Shown here: positions 7,413 to 10,494 of the stretch, one piece after another
Layout: each line of letters starts with the position of its first letter
Numbering within the stretch: the first letter of the stretch is position 1
Notes under the pieces: generated by a model
Told to the model about the DNA's origin: nothing
What the model saw: only the letters and a program-made list of their open reading frames with translations
The model's database searches: none
Position numbers and translations under genes: made by a program
DNA from: Halogeometricum limi
GTDB lineage: Archaea; Halobacteriota; Halobacteria; Halobacteriales; Haloferacaceae
Reading direction: 5' to 3'
DNA length: 64,000 bases
NCBI RefSeq assembly: GCF_900115785.1
Contig: NZ_FOYS01000008.1
Coordinates: 1 to 64,000 of the forward strand

Positions 7413-8567
7413 ATGCGCCCGAACGAACTACCAATGAGAGTCGAAGGCGGCGAGACGATGGCGGTGCTCCGGACGGTCACGGCGCGTGTCCGCGAGCAGA
7501 ATCTGACGTTCCTCGCCGGAAGCCTCGCGTACAACGCCTTCGTCTCGCTCATCCCGCTTCTCCTCTTGCTCCTCCTCGTCGTCGGCGCCGTCGGAAACGA
7601 TGTGTTCGCGACGCGCGTCGCAGAACTCACGGGGACGTACCTCACCACCGGCGCACAGGAGGAGATCGCCGCCGCCATCGACAATGCGGGCGGCGAACTC
7701 GGCCTGTCGGTGACGGGCGTCCTCGTCCTCCTGTGGGGGGCGCTCAAACTGTTCCGCGGCCTCGACACCGCGTTCGCGGAGGTGTACGAGACCGAACAGG
7801 ACCCCAACCTCCTGAAGCAGTTTCGCGACGGCCTCGTCGCGTTGACCGTCATCGGCCTCTCGCTCGTCGCCCTCGCCCTCGCCGGGACGGCGTTCGCCTA
7901 CTTCCGACTCCCCCTCCTGCACGTCCTCAACCCCCTGTTCCTCCTCGTCGGCCTGAGCCTCGCGTTCCTCCCGATGTACTACGTCTTCCCGGACGTGGAG
8001 ATGACCGTCCGCGACGCACTCCCCGGTGCCGTCGTCGCCGCCGGCGGGTGGGCGATACTCGAAGTCGGGTTCCAGGTGTACGCCACCTACGCGGGCCAGT
8101 ACGAGGCGTACGGCGTCGTCGGCGGCATCCTCCTCCTCCTGACGTGGCTCTACTTCGGCGGGTTCGTCCTCCTCGTCGGCGCGGCGGTGAACGCGGTCAT
8201 CCGCGAACGAGACCAGAGCGGTCTCGTGGCGGCGGCGACGGACGAGGCAACCGAGAGCGAAGACGGTGTGGCACGTGCGACACCGGGAGGCGACACCGCG
8301 ACGGGTGCTGCGACGACGGAGGCGAAAACGGTGGAGACGGACGCGGTGACGACGGAGGCGACGTCGCAGACGAACGGCGGAACGGCGTCGAAGTCGTCGT
8401 CAGAAGACGCGAGGTTCGCCGCCGAGAGTGCACGGAGCGGACACCGAGAGCGAAACGCCGACAGCGGTCGGAGACGACCGACGCGGAGCATCGTGGCGGC
8501 GTTCGCCGTCGGCGTCCTCGTCGGATTCGTCGCCGTCGTGGCGGCCGCTCTCGGGGTCGGTCGCTAA
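7413..8567 (+). CDS. YihY/BrkB family membrane protein with long C-terminal extension
   Basis: A 384-residue protein. Residues 1-275 carry the YihY family core, including NLTFLAGSLAYNAFVSLIPLLL, the LWGALKLFRGLDTAFAEVYE motif and about six membrane segments. Residues 280-350 are a Thr/Glu/Ala-rich low-complexity linker, and residues 355-384 form an added membrane segment. Function in this family is not settled; it was once called ribonuclease BN in error. The start at 7413 is used here; an in-frame ATG at 7434 is equally possible. The gene lies 30 bases after the AI-2E gene and may be co-transcribed with it. Confidence 0.85.
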   Translation: MRPNELPMRVEGGETMAVLRTVTARVREQNLTFLAGSLAYNAFVSLIPLLLLLLLVVGAVGNDVFATRVAELTGTYLTTGAQEEIAAAIDNAGGELGLSVTGVLVLLWGALKLFRGLDTAFAEVYETEQDPNLLKQFRDGLVALTVIGLSLVALALAGTAFAYFRLPLLHVLNPLFLLVGLSLAFLPMYYVFPDVEMTVRDALPGAVVAAGGWAILEVGFQVYATYAGQYEAYGVVGGILLLLTWLYFGGFVLLVGAAVNAVIRERDQSGLVAAATDEATESEDGVARATPGGDTATGAATTEAKTVETDAVTTEATSQTNGGTASKSSSEDARFAAESARSGHRERNADSGRRRPTRSIVAAFAVGVLVGFVAVVAAALGVGR

Positions 8568-8576
8568 CGGTCGGAC

Positions 8577-8605
8577 TCAGCACTCAACGACGTCGCCGAG
8601 TTCGG
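8577..8605. repeat. Left direct repeat: duplicate of the 3' end of the beta-CASP nuclease gene
   Basis: These 29 bases match 9262-9290 at 27 positions, with an uninterrupted 19-base core ACGACGTCGCCGAGTTCGG (8587-8605 and 9272-9290). The other copy is the last codons and stop of the beta-CASP gene. Read on the minus strand this copy would encode the same LGDVVE- ending plus a stop. The repeats bracket the AT-rich PH-domain gene. Confidence 0.85.
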
Positions 8606-8659
8606 CAACAACAGATACAGGAATGTTGAGTGGGGAGAAATAATTTCCAGTGAGAACAC

Positions 8660-8670
8660 ATACTTAACAC
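8660..8670 (+). promoter_or_regulatory. Probable TATA element of the PH-domain gene
   Basis: ATACTTAACA-like sequence lies about 25-32 bases upstream of the ATG at 8693. This is the spacing expected for a leaderless archaeal promoter, so the cassette seems to bring its own promoter. Confidence 0.35.
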
Positions 8671-8692
8671 GGTTGCTACTAACTACCACGTC

Positions 8693-9232
8693 ATGTCAAC
8701 CGAGGAGACAGAGGTGGAAGGAGAACAAAGAAGAAGCGAAATGCACGCAGACCGAGTGTCGAATATTCAAGGCGTAACACTACTCGACGACGAAGAACTA
8801 TTATTCGACCTCAGACCCGCGTGGTACGGAGGTATGACATTAAAACGCCTCGCACTATGGACCGTCGCGACGACCGTTACGCTCGGTCTTGCTCTACTCT
8901 ATTTCTGGTATCCTGCCCTCAAAATGTGGCGTTCAAGTAAGAAGGTTCGATACATCGTTACGAGCGAACGCGTCGTTATCAAGGACGAAGGTGGATTGTT
9001 GGGTACGAAGCGGACAGAAGAGTTCCCTATCCGAAACGTATCAGATATTCAAACACGAGCGACATGGTTTGAGCAACGGGCTGGTGTCGGTACTGTCACC
9101 CTCAAAGAACGTGACGGGAAGACGAGCGAAATAGCACTGACATCGATTCCAAATTACGAGGAAGTAGCTTCGACTATCGGTGGCTACCAGCGTCGGGAAT
9201 CTAAACAGAGTCGCCACTACGGGGAGCGGTAA
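8693..9232 (+). CDS. PH domain-containing protein (bacterial-type bPH2/DUF304), AT-rich
   Basis: A 179-residue protein: a charged N-terminus (1-50), a hydrophobic stretch LALWTVATTVTLGLALLYFW (about 53-72) and a PH-like beta domain (about 80-165) with the recurring pattern RYIVTSERVVIKDEGG...TEEFPIRNVSDIQ...VGTVTLKERDG. Such proteins are usually membrane-associated; ligands are mostly unknown. Codon use is unlike its neighbours, with many A/T third positions (for example AGA, ATA, TTA), which suggests transfer. It sits alone in the repeat-bounded segment 8577-9261. ATG 8693 is supported by the TATA-like element at 8660-8670. Confidence 0.8.
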   Translation: MSTEETEVEGEQRRSEMHADRVSNIQGVTLLDDEELLFDLRPAWYGGMTLKRLALWTVATTVTLGLALLYFWYPALKMWRSSKKVRYIVTSERVVIKDEGGLLGTKRTEEFPIRNVSDIQTRATWFEQRAGVGTVTLKERDGKTSEIALTSIPNYEEVASTIGGYQRRESKQSRHYGER

Positions 9233-9261
9233 CAGAATAGTATAAACGAAAGACTGTGCGT

Positions 9262-9290
9262 TCAGAACTCCACGACGTCGCCGAGTTCGG
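9262..9290. repeat. Right direct repeat: native 3' end of the beta-CASP nuclease gene
   Basis: This copy encodes the last residues and the stop codon of the beta-CASP protein on the minus strand. It differs from the left copy at two of 29 bases. Because it is the intact gene end, it is probably the restored target copy. Confidence 0.8.
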
Positions 9291-10494
9291 GCGCGCGGGC
9301 GTCGAACCCGTCGTCGCGAAGTCGCTCGGCGAACCCGGCGCAGTCGTCGCCGTGGTTCACGAGAATATCCGCACCCTCGTACTCCGAGAGGAACTCCCTG
9401 AGACCGTCGCGGTCCGCGTGCGCGGAGAAGTCGTACATCTCCGCGCGGGCCGCGATGGGCATCATCTGCCCGGCTATCTCGGCGCGGCCGCGTTCGACCA
9501 AGTCGCGACCCGGCGTCCCCTCGACCTGATAGCCCGTAAGCGCGATTTTGTTCGTCGGGTCGCCTCGAATTTCGGGGACGTACGTCATCGCCGGACCGCC
9601 CGAGAGCATCCCACTCGTCGTCACGATGGCGGTGTTCTGGTTCGCGATTCGACGGCGCTGACCGTCTCTGCCCGTGACGAACCGCGCGTTCGACTTCGCC
9701 CGGCGCAGGGCGTCGGCGTCGCGGACGAACCCGGGGTTCCGCCGGAGCATCTTCGTCACCTGCTTTCCCATCCCGTCGACGTAGCAGTCCACGTCGTGGG
9801 CGTCCAAGACGAGGAGCATCTCCTGCGTGCGGCCGATGGCGAACGCGGGGACGACGACGGTGCCGCCCTCCCAGATGGTCGTCCGGACGGACTCGACGAA
9901 CCGCTCTTCGACCGTCGACCGGTCGTCGTGTTCCACGTCGGCGTAGGTCGACTCGCAGATAACGACGTCCGCGTCGGGTCGGTCCGTCGTGCCCGAGACG
10001 AGGCGTTGGTCGTCGGTGTGAAAGTCCGAGGTGTAGAGCAGTCGGGTGTCGCCGTCGTCGACGAGGACGTGCGCGCTCCCGGGGATGTGGCCCGCGTTGT
10101 ACAGCGTCACCTCGTACCCCGCCGCCTCGAACGTCTCGCCGTAGTCGTGGCGTTCGGAGACCTGCGACATCCGCTGGACGTGCGTCTCCGTGAACGGGCA
10201 GTCGTAGGTGCCGCCGTGGAGTTTCAGCGTGTCGCGCGCCAGCGTCCGGGCCAACTCCGCCGTCACGGGCGTCCAGTGAATCGGCGGGCGGCGGTCACCG
10301 GAGAGCAGCGAGGGAACCAGTCCGACGTGGTCTAAGTGCCCGTGCGAGACGACGACGGCGTCGGGTTCCGGCGTCGAGACGGGGTACTGCGGGGGGTTGC
10401 CCGTCAGCATCCCGTAGTCGAGGAGGAGCGAGTCGTCCACGAGAATCGCCGAGCGTCCCACCTCGCCGACGCCCCCGAGGAACTGGAGTTTCAT
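9262..10494 (-). CDS. Beta-CASP metallo-beta-lactamase nuclease (archaeal CPSF2-like)
   Basis: A 410-residue protein with the metallo-beta-lactamase core and beta-CASP insertion of RNA-processing nucleases. The zinc motif HGHLDHVG has His51, His53, Asp55 and His56; later motifs include CESTYAD, FAIGRTQEML, TSGMLSGGPAM (motif B) and SAHADRDGL (motif C His). It lacks the N-terminal KH domains of the longer archaeal CPSF1 proteins, so it fits the short aCPSF2 group that cuts or degrades RNA in the cytosol. Its last codons form one of the repeats bounding the PH-domain cassette. Confidence 0.88.
   Translation of the reverse strand: MKLQFLGGVGEVGRSAILVDDSLLLDYGMLTGNPPQYPVSTPEPDAVVVSHGHLDHVGLVPSLLSGDRRPPIHWTPVTAELARTLARDTLKLHGGTYDCPFTETHVQRMSQVSERHDYGETFEAAGYEVTLYNAGHIPGSAHVLVDDGDTRLLYTSDFHTDDQRLVSGTTDRPDADVVICESTYADVEHDDRSTVEERFVESVRTTIWEGGTVVVPAFAIGRTQEMLLVLDAHDVDCYVDGMGKQVTKMLRRNPGFVRDADALRRAKSNARFVTGRDGQRRRIANQNTAIVTTSGMLSGGPAMTYVPEIRGDPTNKIALTGYQVEGTPGRDLVERGRAEIAGQMMPIAARAEMYDFSAHADRDGLREFLSEYEGADILVNHGDDCAGFAERLRDDGFDARAPELGDVVEF

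Follow-up and report, generated by a model that had tools for sequence, protein, structure and literature searches.

A low-GC PH-domain gene inserted beside a duplicated beta-CASP gene end in Halogeometricum

Results

Insertion of a single gene at a conserved locus

A compositionally foreign segment carrying a single gene has been inserted between two conserved genes of a Halogeometricum genome, in an event specific to this lineage that duplicated the stop-codon end of a beta-CASP nuclease gene and left the gene itself intact. The locus was studied within a 64,000-nucleotide stretch of DNA, called the window here. On its left side is a YihY/BrkB-family membrane protein gene (7413–8567, forward strand; Pfam PF03631, 150 bits), which is the same neighbor in 4/4 congeners. 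On its right side is the beta-CASP/metallo-beta-lactamase nuclease gene (9262–10494, reverse strand; PF10996 and PF07521), with a protein 82–88% identical to that of the congeners. The inserted AT-rich unit between them (8606–9261, 656 bp) has a GC content of ≈0.49, against 0.69 in the flanks. Its only gene, an intact ORF on the forward strand (8693–9232, 179 amino acids), encodes a bPH_2 (PH-domain) protein, so that the original prediction of a low-GC PH-domain gene without a recombinase in its unit was borne out. A promoter-like AT-rich stretch at 8655–8692 (forward strand), with TACTTAAC ≈28 nt 5′ of the ATG, would fit a leaderless haloarchaeal transcript.

The unit is bracketed by two direct repeats of 29 bp, at 8577–8605 and 9262–9290 (spacing 685), both read on the reverse strand. 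They are identical at 27/29 positions (93%), and their last 19 bases form an exact core. The right repeat comprises the last nine codons and the stop codon of the intact beta-CASP ORF, ending in PELGDVVEF-stop. The left repeat is a displaced, non-coding copy of this gene end that would read PELGDVVEC-stop; it starts 9 nt past the YihY stop codon, near the position of the beta-CASP end in genomes without the insert. This description of the two copies agrees with what had been predicted.

As a test of insertion, it had been proposed beforehand that relatives should have the gene end only once, adjacent to the YihY gene. Such an empty site was found in 4/4 other Halogeometricum species (G001–G004; the beta-CASP gene of G001 is at 114696–115922), where the YihY and beta-CASP genes are adjacent in the same orientation, with 15–40 nt between their stop codons and the gene end present once; the PH gene is absent. 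No homolog of the bPH_2 protein occurs at this locus in the congeners. Because all four have the empty site, we conclude that a unit of ≈656 bp entered in this lineage and that the stop-codon end was duplicated. Two findings that would have spoken against insertion, presence of the PH gene and both repeats in all relatives or derivation of the left repeat from an unrelated conserved element, were not made. The beta-CASP 3′ end is as similar to the congeners as the rest of the gene, with no mosaic break.

Specificity of the repeats

The repeat pair scored 23, compared with a maximum of 14 in 20,000 shuffles of both flanks. Only 3 of 1,671 placements in the window scored above 14, and all three were sliding versions containing the 8577/9262 pair. 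Among 392 haloarchaeal genomes of the order, the 29-mer (≤3 mismatches) is double only in the source genome. The 19-bp core has one further genomic copy, inside an apparent ornithine cyclodeaminase gene, and since it is codon-driven enough to recur in this way, only the full 29-mer can be regarded as specific. The exact 29-mer pattern has no match in viral contigs; the core matches eight of them. The source genome contains no repeat family or att site of this kind elsewhere, and no copies were found near its integrases. Most other repeats of like spacing and strength in 1.34 Mb of haloarchaeal DNA come back in register, the pattern of repeated or duplicated genes, and none was found to enclose an insert in which the GC content clearly falls. 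A Halosimplex repeat (L105, 15238/16145), considered as a parallel case, is intergenic and without a GC drop.

The sole informative site for comparing the copies is repeat position 5, where the coding copy matches the congeners and the left copy differs. Since it is the coding copy that agrees, the left copy looks released from selection. An 8-bp inverted repeat (CACTCAAC...GTTGAGTG; 8582–8589 and 8625–8632) links the left repeat with the start of the insert and is completed by the two mismatched bases of that repeat; this could be chance or a templated change.

The repeat also fits, nearly exactly, a 28-bp dyad, CAGAACTCCAC-GACGTC-GCCGAGTTCGG, with 11-bp arms and a 6-bp spacer. The arms are complementary at 8/11 positions in the right copy and 7/11 in the left. 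Both mismatches between the copies fall within one arm, which is expected if that arm's parent differed between the copies. Xer/dif sites have this 11-6-11 arrangement (PMC8371274), and the genome has other candidate sites within 3 mismatches. The dyad is a post-hoc reading, noticed after the fact; one of equal quality occurs in 0.5% of window 48-mers and could be due to codon chance, and the same arms were not seen at the beta-CASP gene ends of the congeners. It lends mild support to a recombinase-type site.

A recombinase was neither found in the window nor matched on its contig. The source genome has ≈9 PF00589 genes, all on other contigs. Terminal inverted repeats are absent, the ends of the insert (CAACAACAG.. 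and ..GACTGTGCGT) not being inverted repeats of each other, and DDE transposons, MITEs and casposons were rejected on this ground. An integron gene cassette was rejected as well, the flanking copies being a gene end and not of attC type, with no integrase match on the contig.

The PH protein and related insertions

The predicted protein matches the Pfam family bPH_2 (PF03703) with 39.5 bits (cut-off 22). It has a hydrophobic stretch at approximately residues 48–78 followed by the PH domain at 84–162, and is probably a membrane-anchored bPH_2 protein. Its best relatives are 41–42% identical, and no close relatives were found in a scan of GTDB contigs. The closest relative found is a broken C-terminal fragment of 26 residues (69% identical; G196 C8, L082 5235–5316), which lies in a low-GC region and is joined to unrelated sequence. 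A viral or plasmid source for the gene was considered and set aside, as viral contigs, phages and plasmids yielded no match. The protein likewise matched neither defense families nor NCBIfam, and showed weak similarity (E 0.0015) to PHROG 3707, a "membrane-flanked domain" family filed under moron genes. As a working guess, the PH gene would be a useful accessory gene, moron-like, kept under its own promoter.

Single low-GC PH genes are found repeatedly in haloarchaea, each inserted alone between core genes. The source genome itself (G000) has a second one on contig C8 (≈477742–478173; L038 1441–1872), between an mscS-type gene and rps12; in congeners, where measurable, these two genes are 190–297 nt apart and the PH gene is absent. 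Another, in G400 (C12; L088 5160–5600), separates sufS from an S9 peptidase gene; in the relative G410 the same two genes are adjacent without it. In G102 (C154; L056 1299–1941), a low-GC lone PH gene is situated directly 3′ of a tRNA-Ile gene, the end of which is unrepeated. None of these three PH genes has flanking repeats. In G370, the same ≈190-bp upstream region precedes a PH gene and its neighbor gene (L057 ≈1230–1450 and 1904–2120), so that long, imperfect direct repeats flank the PH gene on both sides. This was the one strong repeat pair near other PH genes, and it was discarded as a parallel case, the repeats being shared upstream regions and not gene ends.

A 42-kb element within the beta-CASP gene

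Elements of ≈42 kb were observed inside the beta-CASP gene in two genomes, G057 (C1 1036551–1078520; L086, L087, L231, L232) and Halorussus litoreus (G418, C4 80893–123173; L142, L228–L230). The host genomes belong to different genera, and the two copies are 94–95% identical over most of their length. In both, the element splits the gene at the conserved SGML codons, with a 7-bp repeat (GATGCTC) and inverted arms GGAAACGA at both ends. It encodes a tyrosine integrase (PF00589), DpdA and DpdB of the Dpd type and, weakly matched, DpdH; Dpd genes are of the 7-deazaguanine DNA modification type. A full-length beta-CASP gene lies near its right end, and since the element thus brings a replacement copy, the host would keep beta-CASP function.

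The element demonstrates that integrases target beta-CASP genes in haloarchaea. It differs from the window insert in its position in the gene and in its repeat length; because its integrase leaves only a 7-bp repeat, that family is unfit as the agent at the window locus. Two of the PF00589 genes of the source genome are ≈40% identical to this integrase.

Discussion

How the segment entered can be read in several ways. We tentatively prefer, at slightly less than an even chance, acquisition of one gene by recombinase-type integration, with the recombinase since lost or acting in trans. Once this species had separated from its congeners, a foreign, compact one-gene segment with a promoter-like region would have arrived and entered the beta-CASP gene at its stop-codon end by a Campbell-type, site-specific reaction, through recombination at a short att-like sequence common to the gene end and the incoming DNA. 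The right copy would then be the 3′ end of the intact gene and the left copy the displaced end beside YihY. The recombinase, encoded outside the unit, may have disappeared as a larger element decayed or may have acted in trans. The action of a recombinase, the source of the DNA and which of the two copies arrived with the insert are what we infer.

This preference is based on the empty sites in 4/4 congeners, on a repeat well beyond chance that starts exactly at the stop codon, on the gene being intact, mildly on the dyad, and on the 42-kb element having independently targeted beta-CASP genes; the PF00589 genes of the source genome are in line with it. Tyrosine-recombinase att repeats are 8–60 bp long and often include the 3′ ends of housekeeping genes (PMC5704250), and the 29 bp fall within this size range. 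On the other hand, the known att repeats of archaea are mostly located in tRNA genes, with a usual length of 40–60 bp (PMC8371274), a single occurrence was found, the search of the window gave no recombinase, and the PH insertions elsewhere are free of repeats.

A close rival, to which we give about one chance in three, is break repair with target duplication. An acquired linear PH fragment would have been captured at a staggered break in the beta-CASP end, fill-in of the overhangs duplicating ≈29 bp without any recombinase, and the left copy would have drifted later. The lone AT-rich PH genes on C8 of the source genome and in G400, absent in relatives, indicate that gene-sized acquisition of this family needs no repeat, which keeps a repair-type origin alive. 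It is also consistent with a unit that has neither relatives nor an adjacent recombinase, and the work on Haloferax volcanii includes a report of microhomology end joining (PMC7521656). However, a staggered fill-in of 29 bp would be unusual, and the exact start at the stop codon and the near-exact centering of the dyad would be left unexplained.

Less probable, and in our view unlikely, is a remnant of homologous exchange, in which a donor with the PH gene beside its beta-CASP gene supplied both the PH gene and part of the nuclease gene, leaving the old gene end behind. Neisseria minimal mobile elements spread by homologous exchange of their flanks and need no repeats; like the unit described here, they consist of a lone foreign gene between two conserved genes, with the site empty in relatives. 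The gene ends show two differences, as alleles would, and PH relatives adjoin different core genes in different species. Against this, the beta-CASP gene lacks a mosaic break, the searched haloarchaea yielded no PH gene following a beta-CASP gene, and an extra illegitimate joint is required. Finally, that the left copy matches the ELGDVV codons by chance or is unrelated sequence, as the recurrence of the 19-bp core within another gene might suggest, is highly improbable given the shuffling result and a 29-mer that includes the stop codon, sits where congeners have their gene end and is double in this genome alone.

The original prediction went further in suggesting a minimal cassette mobilized in trans. 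Insertion has held up, but the reading as a mobile minimal cassette finds only partial support: a single occurrence was found, and two comparable PH insertions are without repeats. The proposed search for other genomes with duplicated beta-CASP ends came back empty, both for the 29-mer in the 392 genomes and within 10 kb downstream of the gene in 53 other haloarchaea, a span that islands >10 kb would exceed; no second occupied beta-CASP end was seen. A recombinase-less archaeal cassette system appears doubtful, with perhaps one chance in eight. In such a system, single AT-rich genes would enter the stop-codon ends of conserved protein genes via a short dyad site, on which a tyrosine recombinase, host or resident, would act in trans. 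Site-specific mobility of the unit is no more than plausible, with one case.

We file the unit as a variant of a known att-bracketed remnant or cassette. A CIME (cis-mobilizable element) is a decayed IME or ICE that retains attL and attR (PMC5704250). Like a CIME, the unit has flanking attL-/attR-like direct repeats, one of them completing the regenerated 3′ end of a housekeeping gene, and no integration or transfer genes; unlike one, it is only 656 bp long with one gene, no relative with a complete element was found, and no accretion or movement was seen. The dif modules of Acinetobacter carry one or two genes between Xer sites in 768–2549 bp (PMC6449649). They share with the unit the size of a gene and the lack of a recombinase, and the unit may also resemble them in a dyad of 11-6-11 geometry on both sides, whereas the site here is formed by the coding end of a chromosomal gene and not a known dif, with no link to Xer seen, in a single case and in an archaeon. 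Archaeal tyrosine-integrase elements likewise have a direct repeat and a regenerated target gene, but they usually use tRNA genes, have repeats of 40–60 bp and carry many genes including the integrase (PMC8371274).

If the insertion is site-specific, few known att-bracketed units of archaea would be smaller than this one, which would illustrate how a lone foreign gene can be placed harmlessly between core genes. Even if it is not, the locus, with its empty sites and both junctions defined, is a clean case for the study of gene-sized acquisitions, which recur with this PH protein family in haloarchaea.
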